Positions 12,807 to 62,214 of a DNA stretch of 64,000 nucleotides are shown here, one piece after another. The stretch covers positions 25,839,501 to 25,903,500 of the forward strand of contig OX485805.1 of assembly GCA_950295325.1 (NCBI GenBank). Reading direction: 5' to 3'. The notes below the pieces were generated by a model. It made no database searches, was not told the DNA's origin, and saw nothing but the letters and a program-made list of their open reading frames with translations. This stretch comes from Polytrichum commune (lineage: Eukaryota; Streptophyta; Polytrichopsida; Polytrichales; Polytrichaceae). A program made the translations under genes and the position numbers. The stretch's first letter is position 1. Each line of letters opens with the position of its first letter.

Positions 12807-13333
12807 AGAGGTTGTTTACACCATGGACTATGAAGTTGTCACAAGGCTATGTAAAATTTGTGATTGGTTGTTGAACTCGTCCTGGGACCACTTCGGTTTA
12901 CACCAACGAAAACATGTCAGAGTGATCATGAAGTTCGAGGTCCCCAAAAGACATATTTTAAGGCCTACATTGTCCACTGACATGGTCCAACGGGTTTTCC
13001 GGTGGGAAAGACAAAAGAGGTGCTTTGGTAGAAAAAGGCAGGTGCCCCTGACAAAAAAATATTGCTATGAATTTTTTTTTAATGAAAGTCTTCTGGAAGA
13101 GAAGATGAAAACAAGAGAATGGTCAAACTTTTTGAGCATTTATTTAAAAAAATCAGCACATTCACTTTTGGGTGCATGGTCATTCCTCTTGGTCCACATT
13201 CAATTTACACCTAGTGAGGGGCCCAAAGGCTTTGTAAATAGTTTTTTTTTAAGAAATCGGACCATCAAGTTGGACCATGGGAAAAAGACCATCTTATATG
13301 GCGACTTCATGGTCCATGGTGTAAACGGGTCTT
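12807..13333. mobile_element. MITE-1 (PIF/Harbinger-like), copy with both ends
   Basis: Left terminus …GTTGTTTACACCATGGACTA; the right terminus is the inverse, CATGGTCCATGGTGTAAAC. The 527-bp body contains the family hallmarks: a TTGGTTGTTGAACTCGTCC subterminal stretch, the GGTCCAACGGGTTTTCCG segment and the AAAAATCAGCACATTCAC segment. The outermost bases and the 3-bp duplication are decayed. The ORF spanning it is a by-product of the element. Confidence 0.8.
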
Positions 13334-15062: not shown

Positions 15063-15606
15063 TCAAAAAAGGCCATTGAATGGGGATTGAATGCCAGTGG
15101 GTCTAATGTTCACGTGCCATCAATACTAGTCTAGGGGCCCACTAAGGGGCGGTTTACACTATGGACCATGAAGTAGGACCAGGGCTCTGCAAGGCAGCTG
15201 ATTGGTTGTTGAAGTTCTCCCGGGACAACTTCGGTTTACACTAAGGAAAAAATGGCAGAGGGACCATGGAGGTTGAGGTCCCCAAAATATAAATTTTAAG
15301 GCCTAATAAATGCACTGACATGGTCCAACGGGTTTTGCGTTGAGAGAGGCAAGAGAGGTGGTCCGGTAGGAAAAGGCAAGGGCCCATGTCAGAGAAATAC
15401 CATTTCAATAAATTTTTAATGAATCTACCTTTTAAGCACCTTAATTATACCATAGCCCATGAGACATACCAGCACTACCTTGCCCTACCCCTTAAACCGG
15501 CTCACACATGTTTCACCAAACAACGCGGGACATCTAGAACTCAAGAATTCAAGTGCAGATTTGTTTTTTTGGTCTACCAAATGTAATGTTTGGAATTTTG
15601 GGGCTT

Positions 15607-15657
15607 GTAATATACCGTTGGAAAGGTCTTCAAAATACCTTTCCAACGGTATATTAC
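15607..15657. repeat. Perfect 21-bp inverted repeat (hairpin)
   Basis: Arms 15607-15627 (GTAATATACCGTTGGAAAGG…) and 15637-15657 are exactly complementary around a 9-base loop. It lies inside the MITE-1 copy. It could be the centre of a small nested foldback element or a small-RNA hairpin; no transcription evidence is visible. Confidence 0.8.
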
Positions 15658-15789
15658 ACACCCCAATATTATTACAAAATGAAGTTGAAAAAGAAAAAAG
15701 AAAAATCTGTAGTGGTTTAGTGATTGTAGATCAGGGTAGTCAAAAGAAGTGCAATGGGAAATCTTCTAACATTAATTATCAAAGAATTG

Positions 15790-15862
15790 AAAATTAGTGT
15801 TGAGCAAGGTAGGGTGGTAACAACATTAAATATAATCAAACACTAAATATCCTATTTAGTGT
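15790..15862. mobile_element. CACTA-like MITE fragment (right end)
   Basis: It ends TATTTAGTGTAGTG, the best-preserved CACTA-type terminus in the window. It is preceded by text resembling the last ~80 bp of the copies at 3928 and 22111 (AATTAGTGTTGAGCAAG). The left part is not identifiable. Confidence 0.5.
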
Positions 15863-16595
15863 AGTGACAACACAAGGTACATGTCACATGTAAATTACAT
15901 TGAGCATGTACAAATTAAATTGCTCATTTTATTTTATTTAAAAAAATTGTTGTGAGAAGATTTGCAAGCCACATCTTCGACACATTTAACAAGAAGTGAA
16001 GACAAGTGAAGCCCAAGAGAAGACAAGGAATGATCAAACCTTTTTTTTTCTTTCAAAATTGCCCTTTTTGGGCATGTATTAAAAAAATCAGCACCTTCAC
16101 TTTTTGGTGTGTGGTCATTCCTCTTGGTCCACATTCGGTTTACACCTAGTGAGGGGCCCATGAACCATGAAAAATAATATTTTAGTAAATCGGACCATGG
16201 AAGTCGTCCCATGAAGTCATCCCACGCAAAATAGGCCTCTTACGTGGGACGACTTCATGGTCCATAGTGTAAACCGCCCCTAAGTTGGAGGAATGGTTCA
16301 CCCTAACAACCAATATTGGTGGAGATTCACGAGATTAGGTATTCAAGATATGCAATCATAATTGTTGCCTAAGGGATCTAACTTACCAACTCCGATGTCT
16401 TGTGGCGTCCATTCCTATTGAAACTTCAGTCATTGGTCTTATTGTGCGCTCTTCCAACTCCATAGACAATTTTGATCCTTGGATTGGACAAGGAATTGTC
16501 TCATCTAGTTACTAGCAATTACAAACCAGTTAGATCAACATTTTAACTTTCAGAAATAAGAGTTGAGATGCAAAATCTATAAGGTTGTCAAAGTG

Positions 16596-29690: not shown

Positions 29691-30248
29691 ATTTGCGGAG
29701 CTTATGTGCTCACTTTTCTTTATGGGATAGGTACTTATACTTGAGTGGTCCTCCGCAAGTCCTCTAATGAAGGACTTAGTTTGAAAAATGTCATCCAAGA
29801 TTTGTGAGTGGATGGAGGTGGAGATTTCATCCAATGTGAAGTTTTCCTAGCTCTACTCGAGGGAAGAGAAGCAAAAGCTGGGGCAACGTAGGAGCCTTTA
29901 GATATGTCAAATTGCAATCGACGACCGAGATTTTCCTAGCCCCCAACCACATGGGAGGCATTCACAACACCTCAGTAATGTAGCTACATTTGGAGCTTAA
30001 ATAGTTTCTTTCAACATTTTAGAAATAGTGCTCATCATTGTAGCTCTTTGAGAGCTAGCATGAGCTACCAATGCAAGGAAATGCACCAATTACATTGGTG
30101 AATTCCGTCAATCCCTATCTAGTGTGGAATATTGAAGAGGTCGCCAACTTCTAGGGCTAGTATGGATGCAACACTCTTGGTGGCAATGAGGAAGCGTTGT
30201 AGAGCAACAACGACCATGGGCAAGGACGTCAACAAATTCAATCGCATA
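29691..30248. other. No gene recognised
   Basis: About 560 bp between a family R copy and the SINE. CAATCGCATA at 30239-30248 is the 3'-side target duplication of that SINE. Confidence 0.5.
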
Positions 30249-30618
30249 GATAGATAGAAACTCCGGTCCCTTTTTGGCAAGGGGCCGGCGTGAATAAAGT
30301 ATCCGTTCGTAATGCCAATGACCCAATGCCCACTGGACAAGGGGACATTGGGACAATACTACTCTCCCCTTTCGAGGATGGACACTATAGTGACACACTA
30401 TACTAGTTCCTAGCTAGCCACTAGTGCCTTGAAGATACCGGACATGGTATCCCCCCAAAGGGCTTTGAGGTACCCATACAACAAGGTCCAAGGACCCCCC
30501 ACCATAGTTGGGTGGACTAAGGCGGTGAGCACCACGCCGGCATGGGGAATAGAACCCACAACCTCCTCATTGGGGGCCATGAGCCCTAACCACCAAGCCA
30601 AGGCCCGTGGTGCCTTTC
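30249..30618 (-). mobile_element. tRNA-derived SINE whose 3' tail matches the LINE at 46375-50103
   Basis: Read on the minus strand, a tRNA-like head carries box A (TGGCTTGGTGGTTAGGG) and box B (GGTTGTGGGTTCTATTCC). A body of ~140 bp follows, then a 3' region of ~140 bp (plus-strand 30249-30391) that matches the last ~138 bp of the LINE at about 85% by eye. Both end in GGAGTTTCTATCTAT; here the tail continues as TATC-type units. Direct repeats flank the insert: CAATCGCATA (30239-30248) and CAGTCGCATA (30619-30628), one mismatch. The ~370-bp length, pol III boxes, short-repeat tail and TSD make this a SINE and not a truncated LINE, because the head has no counterpart in the LINE. Confidence 0.85.
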
Positions 30619-30628
30619 CAGTCGCATA

Positions 30629-39864: not shown

Positions 39865-41479
39865 ATCTTAAAGCATTTGAAAAGCCTTATTCATGACATG
39901 ACATGCACCAAAACATGTAAGCTACATCATGTCATTTAAACTCATTACATGTCAAAAGCGACCTATCCAAATTTAATTCATTCATCATGTGCATTTTTTA
40001 GTTTGTACATGGTATGAAGATTGGACCCCCTCCCCCCCTCCTTCCCCCAAACACTAAAAGTAATACTTGCTATGTGATGCCATAGCTACTACTGAACAAT
40101 TCTATTGATGTGAGGAAAAAATTAGTGTGGGACCCTCTATTTGTCGAGTAGGGTGAAAATAATGAGAGTCCAAGACCCGGGGTATTCCCCATCACTTTTC
40201 CTTTAAGACTAACGACCAACACCGTACATAAGATAAAATTGTCATCGTACACAAAAGTAGCCTAGAATAAGATATCACAACATCAAATTCTTAGAAAGTC
40301 AATCAATGTCTCCCTCAAAGGGTTTCAAAGTCACAATTTGTCGTGGGTTGAAAATTAACATGAACCGCACTAATAAAGACTATTTGTTGTAGTTGTCATC
40401 CACTGCACATTTAATTTGTAGAGTATTTAAGCTGCATTCACAAAATATGCGGAATCCTCCATGTGTATAGGACACATAATTTCCATGCAATTCTTGAGCC
40501 CTTGGAGCTTGCAAAGCAAGCTTGAGGATGTTATGCAAACCCACGAATACAAAACTATATGATGATTTGGAGACTTAGCAAGGTTTCCTAGAAATTGCGT
40601 AAGTAAGTAGGTCGCATATTGAGCTTGGGCCCCCTTAGAACTTTACGTAAGAAGTTAAACAAATGATAACCCAACATTGGAATTGGTGACCCTAAACGAG
40701 GTGGGCCAACTTTATGACTCATTTTCCATGCCACATGGCATGTAGCATGCCCTTGACCCTCCCCCCTGACGTGGATAAGAATACTTATGTGATCCAATTG
40801 ATTCCCATTCCCACTTTCTAGGAACCCTTGACTTTGGTCACTTATGTGTGTTCCCAATGGTGTTCCTTGGAGCATACCTATATAGAAAATTAGTGGAACA
40901 TCGTTGAGAACTCCCCCCTCCACGCCAAAAGACAAGGATCTCAAAGTGAATGTAAGTTTGACTTGGAGGTTGGGGGATGGATATTGGAATATATGTGAAA
41001 CTCTAATTGGTCATGTGGGAGGCCTCATACATTTGAAAACATTGGTTTTGAAACAGAGCTTGGTGAGCCAAGGTAAAAGACTTTTGGTCTTGGCATGTGC
41101 CTAACTTTGAGGAGTTTAGTTTCGAGGTTGGTCCCTCTTTTATCGAGTATAAACATATGTTTTCAACTCCGATCCAATTGGTGCCTTCTCAGGGTCAACT
41201 GCCACATGTGATAGTCCATGCTAGAGGACAAGGCAAGGCAAAAACAAATCAAGCCATGAGGAGGAGCAAATGTGTAGGAGCAAATGTGTAGGAGTTTTCA
41301 CGGTTGCTAGCACAAATAATAGAAATGACACTCGTCCAAAGAAATTGGAGCCTAAATTTAAGCTCCGTAGCATATCACTATGGCAAGAACAAAATGGTTG
41401 AAGGTTGTATGGGGTTGGCTTGAAGCTTGGAGACCAAGTGTGGAGATATTCGAAAGGATATACTACAATTGTCATGCCC
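39865..41479. other. No gene recognised
   Basis: Two C-rich runs near 40027-40050. ORFs of up to 118 codons have no recognisable domain. Confidence 0.5.
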
Positions 41480-41482
41480 TTA

Positions 41483-42641
41483 GGGGCGGTTTACACTATG
41501 GACCATGAAGTCGTCCCACGGCCGTCTAAGCGATGTGATTGGACGTTGAAGTCGTCCCAGGACGACTTGGGTTTACACCAAGGAAAAAATGGCCGAGTGA
41601 CCACGGAAGTTGAGGTCCACAAAATATTTTTTTTAAGCCTACTCTATCCACTGCCATGGTCCAACGGGTTTTCCGTTGGGACAAGCAAAAGAGGTGGTCC
41701 GGGAAAAAGAGCAAGGGCCCATGTCATAAAAATGCCGTTTTAATGATTTTTATTTATTTCTTTAATGATTTATTTTCCAACTTAATTAATGATTTTCTTC
41801 GGCTACAGTTAGAAGGTTGTAAAACTGTAAATACATATTTCCATTATGGTTGAAAGCACAGTAGAAAATGCCCGTTTTTTTGCAAGAAATTGATCATTTG
41901 TATTTGTTCTTTTCATCACTATCCAACCGATGCAATGACATTGCTATCCTATCTTGCACCGACACCGTAACCCTGAATTGAGTAATTTTTTTCTCAAATA
42001 CGGACCTAACCTCTCACACAAAAATCTGAATGTATTGTGTGTCACTCGAGTTCGCTTTCTAAATTCATTCTCCGTCCACGAACCCAACAATAAACGGTCT
42101 ACAAATCCAATCATCCGTTCTTGACTCCATATACTCCTCTCTCTATACCCCATATTCTCATAAACCAAGCTCAAAATTGCTAACTTATCCCATTCTCCTT
42201 GCAAAATCAGCGCTTGAATATCTACCACATGCTTTACGAGCATGTACAAAAACATGTACAATCCTAAAAGCAAAACAAATGTCCTCCTCCTCTCCTCCAT
42301 TGCTTGCTGAAATTTTAGGTTCAAGCAAGCGAAAACTACAAGACAAATGAAGAGAAAAGAAGTGAAGAGAAGAGAAGTCAATAGAAGAGAAGAGAATGGT
42401 CAAACTTGACTTTTTCCAAAAACTGTTTTTTTATTATTATTAAAAAAATCAGCACCTCCACTTTTTGGTGCATGGTCATTCTTCATGGTCCACATTCGGT
42501 TTACACCTAGTGAAGGGCCCATGAACCATGAAAACTAATATTTTAGTAACTCGGATCATGGAAGTCGTCCCATGAAGTCGTTCCATGCAAAATAGGCCTC
42601 TTACGTGGGACGACTTCATGGTCCATAGTGTAAACTGCCCC
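41483..42641. mobile_element. MITE-1 family member retaining a transposase fragment (PIF/Harbinger)
   Basis: Inverted termini beginning GGGGCGGTTTACACTATGG on the left and, in reverse, GGGGCAGTTTACACTATGG on the right. TTA flanks both sides (41480-41482, 42642-42644). The outer regions match the short MITE-1 copies. The extra ~600 bp in the middle encodes part of a Harbinger transposase on the minus strand. This links the MITE family to its autonomous parent. Confidence 0.88.
41944..42381 (-). pseudogene. HARBI1-like transposase, N-terminal fragment
   Basis: A 145-codon open frame. The likely true start is the Met of MEERRR near 42300; upstream codons look like leader sequence. The C-terminal half reads GSWTENEFRKRTRVTHNTFR followed by FLCERLGPYLRKK. 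This is the characteristic segment before the DDE domain in PIF/Harbinger (HARBI1) nucleases, where a '…F++ +RM+ + TF L + L P+ +K' pattern is usual. The frame ends soon after, and the whole catalytic DDE nuclease domain is missing. A family protein of some 350-450 residues has therefore been cut to about a third and cannot transpose by itself. It sits inside the MITE-1 termini at 41483-42641. No helper Myb-like gene is visible. Confidence 0.65.
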
Positions 42642-45869: not shown

Positions 45870-46359
45870 TAAGGGCCGTTTACACCATGGACCATGAAGT
45901 CGGACCATGGAAGATGGCATTTTTTCATGGTCCGACTTGATGGTCCAACTTCCATGATCTGATTTCTTCAAAAATCAATTTACAAGTTTTTGGGCCCTTC
46001 ACTAGGTGTAAAGCAAATGTGGACCAAGAGGAATGACCATGTACCAAAAAGTGAATGTGCTGATTTTTTTAATATATGCCCAAAAAGGACAGTTTGAATT
46101 TTTTTCAAGTATGACCAGTCTATTGTCTTCACTTGTCTTCATCTCCTCTTCCTATAAAATATAATTCGTCAATAATTTATTATAATAGTGTTTCTCTATC
46201 ATGGGCCCTGCCTTTTTTCTACCAAAGTGCCTCTTTTGCCTCTCCCACCACAAAACCCGTTGGACCATGCTAGTGGATAATGTAGGCCTTAAAATATGTC
46301 TTTTGGGGACCTCGAACTCCATGGTCACTCGGACATTTTTTCCTTGGTGTAAACTAAAG

Positions 46360-46374
46360 TGATCCTAGGACGAG
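46360..46374 (+). repeat. LINE target site duplication, left copy
   Basis: TGATCCTAGGACGAG is repeated exactly at 50104-50118 and occurs once, in related form, in uninterrupted MITE-1 copies. Confidence 0.95.
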
Positions 46375-46375
46375 A

Positions 46376-47488
46376 GCATTCTCATTACAAAATGCCTACT
46401 TAAGATGCATAGGAAAACAACTACAAAACGCCCTCAACGATAAAGGTCGAATTGGGAAAATATATGCCGGGCTACTACAATTCATACTCGCCAAATATGG
46501 GGGCTCTAAGGATATCACTCGTATTAAATACCATCATTGTGTTAGGTCGCCCATCACTAGAACATTATTCCTGCTCAAACATAAAGCCGGAGTCCATCTA
46601 AAAAGTACACTACATAACTTCTTACTAACCCCATCCCCACTTGAAAATGCATGGGTGCAGGAAGCACCAACACTCCATGACCTCAATCCCAACATCTCAC
46701 TTAAATTATTACACAAATTACTAGTACATAATATAACCACACTAGACCAAATCACCATGCCTAATGGCACCACTCTAATGAGTCCGGATGAATTCAAAAT
46801 ATATTATTCCACTCCTTCTAAACTCATCCAAAGCGCACTTAATATCGCAAACCAATTATTCTGCCATCCCCCTTGCAATCAATGCCCTTCACCATGCCAA
46901 CAACACCATCCTCCAAGATCTCTCAAAAACAAATATATCAAAAGACACCACAACATCTTACCCCGCCCACCGACCGCCCCCGTACATCCTCCTACCCTTC
47001 ACACCCCCCCTCCCAACAACATGCTTAACAATCCCCGAAAATTCCCCATACATAAAATACTAGATCATAAACAAAACCAATCCAATGACCATAACGGCAT
47101 AAAAAGCACAGTCACGTCCTACCTCTGCCAATGGACCACGACAAACAACACCACATATAATAAATGGCGTACACAAAGAGACCTTTACCCATACTGTGAA
47201 GCCACCACATGTAACCACAACACAGCCTTGCTGATTCATTACTACACAGAAAGACAACACAAACATTTTTCGAACATCATTAATGCCTACTTCTCCAAAG
47301 ACCAACAACGAGACACAAGGTACGTCACACCAACCACGATAATCCCACTCGCACATATCTCTATTAATGAATTTAACCCAGAAAACGACATCGAAACAAA
47401 CTCTAATACCATACAAACACAATTTGATGTCGCCCACATTTACGAGGACATGGACGACACCTCATCACCATCCCGAAAACTAGACTAA
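46376..47488 (+). pseudogene. LINE polyprotein part A: region downstream of RT (thumb/linker)
   Basis: Open in frame from the 5' truncation point to TAA at 47486-47488, 370 codons. The first Met, at 46655, is internal and not a true start. Helical, K/R-containing text (LRCIGKQLQNALNDKGRIG, then KYGGSKDITRIKYHHC) fits the thumb region that follows RT in LINEs. The middle has a Cys/His cluster (CHPPCNQCPSPCQQHH) of zinc-knuckle appearance, then a proline-rich linker. No RT motif (such as the catalytic DD) is present. Its stop overlaps the next ATG as TAATG. The next reading frame is also open back to 47428, so a simple 1-bp indel between 47428 and 47486 would explain the break. Confidence 0.65.
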
Positions 47489-48828
47489 TGTGGCTATGGA
47501 AACAATACCAATTGGCAAAAAATACCGCACATGGTCTAGAACCATCTACCCAATCATTCGAAACTGAAATTGTTTGGCTATATCAAAGGTACAAATACCG
47601 TATCCCAAAAAACGACCCACTCAAACGTGCCCACTATACTATACCAACGCCCATATTAGATCTTCTCATTACAACATTCAATATTAACCACTCGTACTTT
47701 TCATCTCCAGTTACATGCCCCACACAATTCACACAATTCTATTCGCCATTCTCGAGAGACATAATATTTGGATCTCTAGGAAAAGCTTTTGACCATAAAT
47801 GGCAAGGCATCGGATACGTACATCCTCACAATCCAACAGACCTACAACAAGCCATCCACTGGGCACGCATGGCGGCCCAAAATGACCCAGATACAATCAC
47901 TATACTTATAACCCCGGATACGGATTGGTACAACAACCCCAACCCACACATAGGCCCATTTCCGGACACACACATTATTGCTCACTTCGTTGCTGACACG
48001 ATCACTTATGAGGAACCCACCATACCCCCTGAACTCAATATTAAATGCAAAGAACCATCTACCATGCAAATCTTCTGTATTCATCACCAAAACAACAATA
48101 TTGGTACCTACGAACAAATGAAATTAATAAACGACACAGTAAACATACTCCACATTCTACACAGTCACACACAAATTGCACTACCCACCCCTCCGAACAC
48201 CACCGTCAACCCTAATAAAAAATGGGCTAAATTAACTTATCCAACCATGTTCCCACACAATAATATCCTTACACCACAACTTCCAAACTACCAAACTAAC
48301 TTCCCCCTAAAATTCCACCCCCAATTCAGCTACTACACAGATGGTTCCTTTATAAAACCCACCGAAATTGCCCCAGGGGTATGGAGAAGAGAAAAAACTG
48401 GATACGGTATCTACAGCCCCAAAGGCTTAAATATCGCCAAAAGATTACACGGCCATCAGAACATACTACGCGCAGAAATGATGGCCATACATAAAACACT
48501 AAGAATCATCAATACACAATTTCCTAATGAACCCGCCTTCATATTCACAGACAGTCTAAACGTACTCTATTTACTCAGCACACAAATTAAACATCCCACT
48601 CTTCACAATAGTCACCCAGACCAAACCACACTCAACTCCATGGTAAAACTCCTTCAAAACCATATACAACCAATCACACTATACAAAGTCCGAGCACATG
48701 TCAACATTGACGGTAATGAAAAAGCCGACAAACTTGCAAAAGCAGGCTTACAATTAGAACATAGAATTGCCACCCATCCATATGAACATGCCCATGCCAC
48801 TCCGTATTATTATCAAAAAGATGTCTAG
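47488..48828 (+). pseudogene. LINE polyprotein part B: PCIF1-like methyltransferase segment plus RNase H
   Basis: 446 codons. Residues about 80-205 contain FGSLGKAF (94-101), VHPHN (111-115) where PCIF1-type m6A methyltransferases have the catalytic NPPF, a following helix, ITILITPDTDWY (137-148) matching the 'fvvfiPeW' strand, and a closing MQIFCIHH strand. The changed catalytic motif suggests loss of activity, or a divergent variant. Residues about 280-420 are RNase H type I with all key acids in order: D284 (YYTDGS), E330 (LRAEMMAI), D355 (FTDSLNVL) and D414 (GNEKADKLAK), plus H404. RNase H would remove RNA from the RNA/DNA hybrid during reverse transcription. The frame ends in TAG at 48826-48828, and part C continues in the same frame, so that stop is probably a mutation. 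Confidence 0.75.
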
Positions 48829-48834
48829 GCCTCG

Positions 48835-49791
48835 ATGATCGACGTTCCAGATAAAGGCCCAGTAAGATTCTTAGACAAACAAATTAAGAAATATGATAGG
48901 GAAAACAATATAGCAATCATGGCCACCCAAACCCCCAACACGTGTAAATGGACAGAAAACGCAGACATAGACAAAGAATTATCAAACGACTTTTGGACAA
49001 ATCCCACAATCACTGACAAACAAAAATCATGCCTTATTAAATTCTGCACAGGAACATACATGGGTAATGCTAGGAAACAAATGTTCTTCGGTCCCCAACG
49101 ATACCCCTCTATCATGTGCCCCATATGCCACTCAAACGAACCAGACACTTGGCTCCATGTACTACTTAAATGCAAACAACAACATATACATTCACTCAGA
49201 GTTAAAAGACATAACAAAGCAGTCGGAGAAATTAGAAAGCTCCTAATCTCGTCCGAAAAATCCCGATGCTTTACTCTCATGAATGCCGGTATCTTCAATA
49301 ATAATCCCCAAGAAAATACCGTCCCTAATTGGCTACTCCCCTGTATATGTAACACACAAAGATGTCACTGTAACGCAAAATTCCGACCTGATATACTTTG
49401 CGTTAAAGGACTACCATATCAAAATGACCCACCAGTTGACATTGACCCTGACCTCTCCATACAATTTATTGAATTTACATACTGTAACGATCGGTTCTCC
49501 CGGGAAGCCATAGAAGCTAAAATCAACAAATACAAACCGCTAATTGATAGTATTGCTTCCAGAGGATGGAAAATTGAACCACTTCTTGTCATTACTGCTG
49601 GGGCTAGAGCTACTGCCCACATCCCTCCTATGAAACTACTAGAAGACAATCTCAAAATACCCATGGTAACCATCAAAAATACCTTTAAAAATATCAATAC
49701 CATTGCAATACAATATGCAATGTCAATCCTTCTCCATAAAAGAAGAATTGAAAACCACCAACCACTTCCCCAAAATCTAGATCCCCCATAA
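48835..49791 (+). pseudogene. LINE polyprotein part C: CCHC knuckle and restriction-like endonuclease
   Basis: In the same frame as part B after one stop codon; 318 codons from the first Met. C95-x2-C98-x9-H108-x4-C113 is the CCHC knuckle that precedes the endonuclease in R2-like LINEs, followed by KRHN (124-127). The nuclease core is RPDIL (184-188, catalytic D186), then IEFTYCND (212-219, acidic E213 and D219) and AKINKYKPLIDSI (228-240, Lys 229 or 232). This is the PD-(D/E)XK arrangement that nicks target DNA for target-primed reverse transcription. A second Cys/His cluster (CICNTQRCHC, 170-179) sits just before the nuclease. The natural protein end is probably at 49791. Confidence 0.75.
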
Positions 49792-50103
49792 CTCAAAACT
49801 TAAACTTAAATGTATTCAACACTTATTCCCATCTCAGGATTAGGGATTGGTGCAAGTGTGTTGGTACCAACGTCCCGCCCTTAAAAATTAAAAAAATTAA
49901 AAAAAATTAAAAAAAAAAAAAACTCCCTCGTGGGCCATGACGGGCCCCTGTTATTTGTTACTGGATACTATAGTGTCCATCCTCGAAAGAGGAGAGTAGT
50001 TTTGTCCCAGCTTCCCCATGTCCTGTGGGCATCAGATTGTTGGCATTACGAACGGACACTCTATTCACGCCGGCCCCTAAAGGGACCGGAGTTTCTATCT
50101 ATA
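49792..50103 (+). other. LINE 3' UTR and retrotransposition tail
   Basis: Contains an AAAATT-type run (49883-49921), then a 138-bp terminal block (49966-50103) shared with the SINE at 30249-30618, ending GGAGTTTCTATCTATA. The block probably carries the RNA structure recognised by the LINE protein; candidate pairings such as CGGCCCC/GGGACCG lie close to the end. Confidence 0.8.
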
Positions 50104-50118
50104 TGATCCTAGGACGAG
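50104..50118 (+). repeat. LINE target site duplication, right copy
   Basis: Exact copy of 46360-46374. Confidence 0.95.
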
Positions 50119-50189
50119 TTCAACAACCAATCACATATTTTACAGGGCCTTGGGATGACTTCATGGTCCATGGTGTAAGCAACCCCTAA

Positions 50190-61361: not shown

Positions 61362-62025
61362 CTACTCACGATTACTGCCCTCCTTGGATCCAGGCAGGCC
61401 ATCCTCAGGTAACCACCAGAAATCATTGCATGTGAGACGCTTCTTCTCAGGTGCTCGACTCACCAAGCCTTCCATAGGCCATAATTCATCCCCGTCATCA
61501 TCTTCTTCTGAATCAGAGTCTGGGTTATAAGGCCCAGTATTTGCAGCCCTGTCCCTGCGGAGCTCATAGCCATCTTCGAAGTATTCCTGGTATAATCCAT
61601 CCTCACTTGACCATTGCCCATGAATCTCATTTGCCCTAGCTAAAGCCATCCCAAATGTGACATCCTGCCAAGAAAATTTCTCATCTGCAAACCTACTGAG
61701 AGTTGGAGTGTCACCCACCACTACAGTATATACATGTTTGGATTGTGCCAATTGCAACATTTTGGAGAAGTCTGAATCATCGGATACAAGACAAATGCAT
61801 TGTACCCCTTCTCGGATGGATCTGTTTATATGATGCTTCAGGGCTTCATCGGCTGCTTGAGGCTTATCACTGACCATCCTAACATAAACACCTGCCCTTC
61901 TTAGGTCACCAGCAAGCCCATATCCTACTTTAGGTGTTAGAACCTCTCGGGCTGCATCTTTGTATCTGATAACAGCATATTCACAATTCAGCATCCCATA
62001 ATTGAGAAACATCGATCTAGGACCT
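61362..62025 (-). CDS. Zinc-finger/NYN-domain protein, terminal exon (NYN RNase-like domain)
   Basis: The last coding exon, ending at the stop at 61362-61364. It encodes the NYN (PIN-like) fold found in plant C2H2-NYN proteins: LTPKVGYGLAGDLRRAGVYV, then SDKPQAADEALKHHI (a conserved acid of the NYN site), then CLVSDDSDFSKML (the paired-Asp signature), then VVVGD and FSWQDV. NYN domains are metal-dependent nuclease-like folds usually linked to RNA processing. The tail has an acidic run (PDSDSEEDDDGDE) and a WWLPEDG end. The exon start is set by phase: the upstream exon ends after two bases of a codon, and only the AG before 62025 (…CAAAG|AGGTCC) keeps the frame, giving EE-R-GPRSMFL. The nearer-consensus CTACAG ending at 62033 would run into a stop. 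Plant proteins of this type are often annotated only as 'C2H2-like zinc finger'; no symbol is assigned. Confidence 0.8.
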
Positions 62026-62214
62026 CTTTGCACTGTAGATTAAGTTTATGATAGTGAACATTATCCTTCACATAATACTCAGATTCAAAAATACTATGCA
62101 TTCAGATCAATTGATAACCTTCAATGCTATTGGCAGGGTAAAGTGCCATCATTAAAATGACAAAATTACAAATAATACATGACTAGAATCAAAAAGATTT
62201 GACAGCAAAAATAC
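62026..62214 (-). other. Intron (189 bp) of the zinc-finger/NYN gene
   Basis: Donor AGAG|GTATTT at 62215/62214 and acceptor AAAG|AGGTCC at 62026/62025, GT-AG, phase 2. There is a pyrimidine-poor acceptor region and an alternative, frame-breaking AG 7 bases upstream. Confidence 0.6.

Follow-up and report, generated by a model that had tools for sequence, protein, structure and literature searches.

Among long interspersed nuclear elements (LINEs), that is, retrotransposons without long terminal repeats (non-LTR), those known as Dualen/RandI are described as single elements that carry both an RNase H and a restriction-like endonuclease (PMC4640811, PMC3636483). Those of Chlamydomonas are reported as well to end in short repeats, not in poly(A), and to have short interspersed nuclear elements (SINEs) which share their tails, i.e., SINEX-1, 2, 4 and 5/6, whose partners are RandI/Dualen families having short-repeat tails, features that are not strictly defining of the group (PMC3747384). 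Partnership between SINE and LINE is described there as proceeding through recognition of the 3′ end (PMC3747384). Considered here is an insertion that resembles these elements, positions 46375-50103 of a 64,000-nt stretch of DNA from Polytrichum commune (contig OX485805.1, positions 25,839,501 to 25,903,500; the whole stretch is ‘the window’ in what follows). It is best explained, at a probability of about 0.72, as a 5′-truncated, inactive copy of a non-LTR LINE, one whose plan would be reverse transcriptase (RT), PCIF1-like segment, RNase H, CCHC knuckle and then restriction-like endonuclease, and whose machinery would also have copied a tail-sharing SINE. The copy is referred to below simply as the LINE.

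Two further groups set the background. Utopia elements of oomycetes likewise combine RNase H with a restriction-like endonuclease in one element, the RNase H being placed upstream of the RT and being of the archaeal-like type, with R instead of H, a type found also in plant L1 elements (PMC4640811). As to the L1 elements of flowering plants, 224 of 233 families have poly(A) 3′ ends (PMC3747384).

A bounded insertion and its coding plan

An exact 15-bp direct repeat, TGATCCTAGGACGAG, bounds the LINE, as a sequence-only reading of this DNA had claimed, and those borders hold when compared with empty sites. That is, the flanks of the LINE were joined by script with one copy of the repeat retained, and the joined sequence was then aligned within the window. 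It aligns unbroken over the junction to 13328-12807 (78% identity, 574 columns), to 1864-2098 (85%, 236 columns), to 15434-15141 (77%, 294 columns) and to 41723-41479 (80%, 247 columns), with these four being the only ones of 11 non-self matches at E ≤ 1e-5 to cover the junction. As the joined flanks thus run without interruption along four empty copies of a repeat, both the borders and the target are known, and 46375-50103 is confirmed as a real insertion. DIRS elements, by comparison, have a tyrosine recombinase and produce no target duplication. The 15-bp duplication does not fit them, and no recombinase was recognized by Pfam in the three reading frames of the LINE.

Those three long forward open reading frames (ORFs) are of 376, 466 and 320 aa (ORF1, ORF2 and ORF3). 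In 1000 first-order Markov simulations of the LINE no frame was longer than 271 aa, which the longest of the three, at 466 aa, well exceeds; the test covers that frame only and not ORF1 and ORF3 singly. The segments follow one another as PCIF1-like, RNase H, CCHC and RPD…E…K, the same order that had been read from the letters alone and which is seen both in the frames and in the motifs of this non-LTR-type insertion. Both the PCIF1-like segment and the RNase H lie within the one uninterrupted 466-aa frame, and ORF3 continues in that same frame following a single TAG. This continuity argues against a chance joining of PCIF1-like with LINE sequence, i.e., a chimera or host gene retrocopy with no lineage behind it, which is a reading that the single copy at hand might be said to favor but which nevertheless seems very improbable indeed. 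ORF1 is in a different frame from ORF2, and with that change of frame plus the TAG the copy is broken. From its lone in-frame stop, roughly 0.7% substitutions per site may be estimated, with an upper bound of 3.8%.

For the RNase H, ORF2 matches the Pfam RNase_H profile above its curated cut-off (E 2.9e-13). Its E, D, H and D residues align with those of human RNase H1, while the first D, in YYTDGS, precedes that alignment and is found inside of the Pfam match. The H is present in VRAHVNIDGNEKAD. From the end of the RNase H match to the CCHC knuckle there are just 122 codons (48751-49116), too few to accommodate an RT, and it is for this reason that the RT of an intact relative is placed upstream of the PCIF1-like segment. 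The ORF1 remnant would then be sitting where a post-RT region should be, the copy apparently having been truncated from its 5′ end. No Pfam domain was found in ORF1 above cut-off (the best, Chromo at 0.19, is sub-threshold), nor any match among PDB sequences at E ≤ 10.

Toward the C terminus, the ordered pattern CCHC…[RK]PD…[DE]…K, written after the sequence had been viewed, is reproduced in 2 of 20,000 shuffles of ORF3. Beyond this pattern, the C-terminal part of ORF3 may be akin to R2-type endonucleases.

The PCIF1-like segment

The Pfam name PCIF1_WW is a misnomer, the family instead being of a CAPAM-like methyltransferase (PMC7641849). ORF2 matches this profile with E 1.5e-10 (41.4 bits, the cut-off being 31.1), and the sub-segment alone does so with E 5.6e-11, the match covering profile positions 8-106 of 176. 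What is matched, however, is the part of PCIF1 that precedes the catalytic motif, NPPF, and not the catalytic half, which is unrecognizable in the LINE. Thus, aligned with zebrafish PCIF1, the pre-NPPF part scores 72, as equalled by 0 of 2000 shuffles, versus a score of 27, equalled by 203 of 2000, from the motif on (60 residues tested; 44 residues of zebrafish PCIF1). The Pfam model, which extends beyond those 44 residues, likewise ceases to match at its position 106. The replacing region, 47818-48300, has no Pfam match above cut-off.

NPPF itself aligns with HPHN. The sequence-only reading had taken VHPHN to be a PCIF1-like motif, whereas this is the place at which the signature of the enzyme is missing. 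An alternative alignment, made by eye, brings the neighboring NPTD to the NPPF position at a cost of two compensating gaps, and still supplies no aromatic residue. To arrive at HPHN from NPPF requires, by manual count, at least 4 changes in 12 nt. Given the substitutions per site estimated above, loss of NPPF through decay of this copy is unlikely, so the parent LINE probably was without NPPF as well.

It is from this perspective that an enzyme may be considered, i.e., that the segment would serve as an adenosine N6-methyltransferase, active or altered, with which the LINE marks capped RNA of its own. Homology is clear over the stretch of PCIF1 that directly precedes NPPF, and capture of methyltransferases by retrotransposons has been reported (PMC5890265). 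Mutation of NPPF nevertheless lowers or abolishes PCIF1 activity (PMC10544176, PMC6318281), decay is a poor excuse for so many changes within 12 nt, and where similarity following the motif was tested, it lacks significance. Active methylation has been rejected as the leading reading and appears highly improbable. Of the captured mRNA-adenosine-methyltransferase-like domain that had been proposed, it is the homology to PCIF1 which is supported and the methyltransferase enzyme which is not. The retrotransposons SymbioLINE-Dnmt, SymbioDIRS-Dnmt3 and KnitGypsy-Dnmt3, along with Dam-like domains in DIRS, also carry methyltransferase-related domains, but those are DNA methyltransferases (PMC5890265), while the relative of the segment in the LINE is an RNA-cap enzyme, here lacking its motif and located before the RNase H of a LINE-type polyprotein.

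Supported instead is a PCIF1-like domain that would be non-catalytic. With the catalytic motif absent, the segment most likely would be an RNA- or protein-binding domain which has been kept within the polyprotein. No description of a PCIF1-like domain in a LINE was found among the listed matches to titles and abstract beginnings of open-licence papers, within which no paper links PCIF1 with Dualen, and among the matches listed for ferns, mosses or lycophytes none contains RandI.

The 3′ tail, a SINE-like unit and other features of the window

The LINE ends with TTTCTATCTATA, i.e., with (TCTA)n and not with poly(A). An A-rich stretch is found at 49883-49922 in the 3′ untranslated region (UTR), approximately 180 nt before the true end, and could pass for a poly(A) tail. 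The last 137 nt of the LINE recur on the minus strand at 30391-30249 (BLAST, 85.9% identity over 142 columns, E 1.1e-42), differing by 15 substitutions over 137 ungapped columns plus one 6-nt gap. That second tail forms the 3′ portion of a unit of 370 nt (30618-30249) which possesses a near-perfect duplication of its own. Each of the two tails has a fold that is more stable than most of its shuffles (Table 1), whereas the adjoining 137 nt of the LINE 3′ UTR do not (z −0.31, with 72 of 200 shuffles as stable). In the terminal hairpin the stem is kept in both tails, and it is the loop which differs, by the 6-nt gap.

A short unit that possesses both the structured tail of a LINE and its own duplication is what SINE/LINE recognition of 3′ ends predicts, and this suggests that the machinery of the LINE may have copied the short unit also. 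One may instead view the 370-nt unit as a 5′-truncated copy of some other LINE family that has a similar tail, in which case it is no SINE. Consistent with such truncation, its head contains no recognizable tRNA and matches to the A and B boxes are at chance level. The first 227 nt, however, are similar neither to the LINE 3′ UTR (blastn) nor to the LINE ORFs (tblastn), and a duplication sets both ends of the unit, so truncation of another LINE is fairly unlikely. The SINE-like unit, present as one copy in the window, was absent from the sequence-only reading, as was the short-repeat, non-poly(A) end, and together these add a line to the comparison with Dualen/RandI. As a clue to mechanism the common-tail unit is stronger than is the PCIF1-like segment.

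Table 1. Positions within the window of the LINE, the SINE-like unit and the repeat that received the LINE
Feature	Positions	Strand	Basis or remark
Target-site duplication, left copy	46360..46374	.	exact repeat TGATCCTAGGACGAG; single, with mismatches, in four empty paralogous sites
ORF1 remnant, no recognized domain	46375..47485 (open frame 46358-47488)	+	frame list, Pfam, PDB
PCIF1-like segment (PCIF1_WW 8-106 of 176), ends one codon before NPPF position	47521..47817	+	Pfam; zebrafish PCIF1 alignment
Region replacing PCIF1 catalytic half, HPHN at NPPF position	47818..48300	+	no significant similarity
RNase H domain, D-E-D-H-D residues	48325..48750	+	Pfam RNase_H 3.2e-14, residues 9-150 of 48301-48825
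In-frame TAG between ORF2 and ORF3	48826..48828	+	broken copy
CCHC knuckle CPICHSNEPDTWLHVLLKC	49117..49173	+	ORF3 residues 97-115
Restriction-like endonuclease-type motifs RPD…IEFTY…K, to ORF3 end	49384..49788	+	RPD at ORF3 residue 186
Structured 3′ tail common to LINE and SINE-like unit, ends TTTCTATCTATA	49967..50103	+	fold z −2.02, 6/200 shuffles as stable
Target-site duplication, right copy	50104..50118	.	exact 15-bp repeat
SINE-like unit of 370 nt: weak A/B boxes in head, tail of 143 nt matching LINE tail, ends TTTCTATCTATC	30249..30618	-	tail fold z −3.81, 0/200
SINE-like unit duplication, upstream copy	30619..30628	.	TATGCGACTG on minus strand
SINE-like unit duplication, downstream copy	30239..30248	.	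TATGCGATTG on minus strand; 9/10 match
MITE-like repeat receiving the LINE	45870..50188	.	41-nt inverted ends, 80% complementary

The repeat into which the LINE has inserted resembles a miniature inverted-repeat transposable element (MITE). Copies or half-copies of this one family are found at 1864-2098, 12807-13328, 15141-16282, 41479-42640 and 45870-50188, with inverted ends around GTTTACACYATGGACCATGAAGT and possibly a TTA/TAA flank. The two halves of the repeat stand apart at 15.1-16.3 kb and at 41.5-42.6 kb, as if there were extra sequence inside of single elements. Within the latter copy is a 151-aa frame, 41944-42399 on the minus strand, which has no Pfam match and which may be akin to a PIF/Harbinger transposase. 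Of ten other frames in the window that were compared with Pfam, none reaches cut-off. The best, 61362-62036 on the minus strand, matches NYN below threshold (4e-4, 21.4 bits, the cut-off being 24.2) and could be a host gene, presumably one resembling plant proteins, though this is a lead only. Nothing in the window was detected by Rfam at its gathering threshold or by ARAGORN.

The nearest described plan and a possible mechanism

A number of results weigh against interpreting the LINE and its SINE-like partner in this way. By its own terms, the sequence-only reading would be refuted by the lack of a PCIF1 or an endonuclease profile match. The PCIF1-like segment is recovered by profile, as is the RNase H, as given above, but the endonuclease is not: no Pfam family matches ORF3 at E ≤ 1 or its C-terminal part at E ≤ 10, and no PDB sequence matches ORF3 at E ≤ 10. 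In R2 the RPD-to-E spacing is 12-14 residues, and the 26 residues seen in the LINE are longer than that. No RT was found by Pfam in the three frames, and the LINE has one coding copy in the window, tblastn with those frames finding no second at E ≤ 1. The claim of PCIF1 homology depends upon the Pfam profile, as single-sequence searches with PDB chains of PCIF1 gave E 0.12 and 0.19 or else 0.055 and 0.085, which are not significant. AlphaFold2 as run without relatives was uninformative both for the PCIF1-like plus RNase H part (mean pLDDT, i.e., predicted local distance difference test, of 33.3) and for the endonuclease part (41.9). Relatives were not confirmed in viral contigs, as searched from ORF2 (0 of 2 pattern matches), ORF3 (0 of 23) and the PCIF1/LINE alignment (0 of 40), in prokaryote genome contigs from ORF2 (0 of 27), or in phages (tblastn, ORF2), and the pattern of the LINE tail occurred in 0 viral and 0 genome contigs, all of these being places in which plant LINEs are not expected.

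The same is true of parts of the evidence from the tails. Taken over its full 312 nt, the LINE 3′ UTR has no exceptional stability (z −1.44, 10 of 100 shuffles). The consensus fold, in which 38 pairs hold in both tails and one pair shows a double change, was derived from the very two tails upon which it is judged. When substitutions are placed at random, using 14 of the 15 as the last column was left out, support for the fold is modest: the consensus energy is attained in 33 of 1000 placements, and in 81 of 1000 the LINE-only structure loses no more than the 1 of its 38 pairs that is actually broken. Neither Rfam nor ARAGORN found a tRNA in the SINE-like head. Its A and B boxes together show 2 mismatches, and of the five such pairs that the window contains, two others fit better.

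As for which described plan is nearest, that of Utopia does not fit, since in it an RNase H of R type precedes the RT, while the LINE has the H and no room for an RT from its RNase H to the CCHC knuckle. With plant L1 the LINE shares non-LTR insertion with target duplication, and RNase H occurs in plant L1 as well, but the tail of the LINE is not poly(A), its RNase H has H rather than the archaeal-like R, and its endonuclease motifs are C-terminal. A CCHC knuckle followed by RPD…E…K motifs is reminiscent of the R2, R4, NeSL, CRE and Hero clades. From these the LINE differs in having as its one known target a MITE copy and, presuming from a list of RNase H-bearing clades that those named lack it, in having an RNase H (PMC4640811).

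Dualen/RandI then is the closest known plan, because the short-repeat tail and SINE-like partner are found together with RNase H and with endonuclease motifs, the endonuclease of the LINE being seen by motifs only. Membership is not claimed, as the defining apurinic/apyrimidinic endonuclease (APE) and RT lie outside of this truncated copy. Differing as well are the tail repeat, TCTA as compared with the reported (ATT)n and (CTATTT)n (PMC3747384), and the PCIF1-like segment, which goes unmentioned in the available parts of the Dualen/RandI accounts. Should the LINE instead be Dualen/RandI proper, then APE and RT would be found in an intact relative alongside RNase H and restriction-like endonuclease, and a PCIF1-like segment could be general to the group though unnoticed, rather than captured by one lineage. 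This is a substantial possibility, if one somewhat short of even, with RNase H plus restriction-like endonuclease being named, in the available part of one account, for Dualen/RandI and the ill-fitting Utopia only (PMC4640811), and with short-repeat tails and SINE partners having been reported for RandI (PMC3747384), but with APE and RT both missing from the copy.

Under the preferred reading, i.e., a truncated LINE with a tail-sharing SINE, the C-terminal endonuclease of an intact relative would nick the target. The RT would begin from the structured tail of the RNA, with its terminal UCUA repeats, and prime on the nick, and RNase H would then remove the template RNA. A SINE with the same tail could be copied by this same LINE machinery. 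Endonuclease activity, target-primed mechanism and the role of the PCIF1-like segment are all predicted from sequence. More speculative is a land-plant LINE lineage in which RNase H and restriction-like endonuclease would be joined by a PCIF1-like domain, captured and deprived of its catalysis, that binds capped RNA, and in which strict recognition of the tail would drive a SINE family of its own, that is, a Dualen/RandI plan surviving, and elaborated, outside of green algae. This we view as possible but doubtful.

If intact relatives confirm it, then a domain derived from a cap enzyme within a LINE polyprotein would give direct access to the choice of template RNA by LINE proteins, and the common-tail SINE-like unit offers a ready test of strict 3′-end recognition. 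In flowering plants, only three SINE/LINE pairs were known at the time of one account, with partners from L1 or RTE (PMC3747384). A land plant with a SINE/LINE pair of Dualen/RandI-like type would be of note, depending upon the host.

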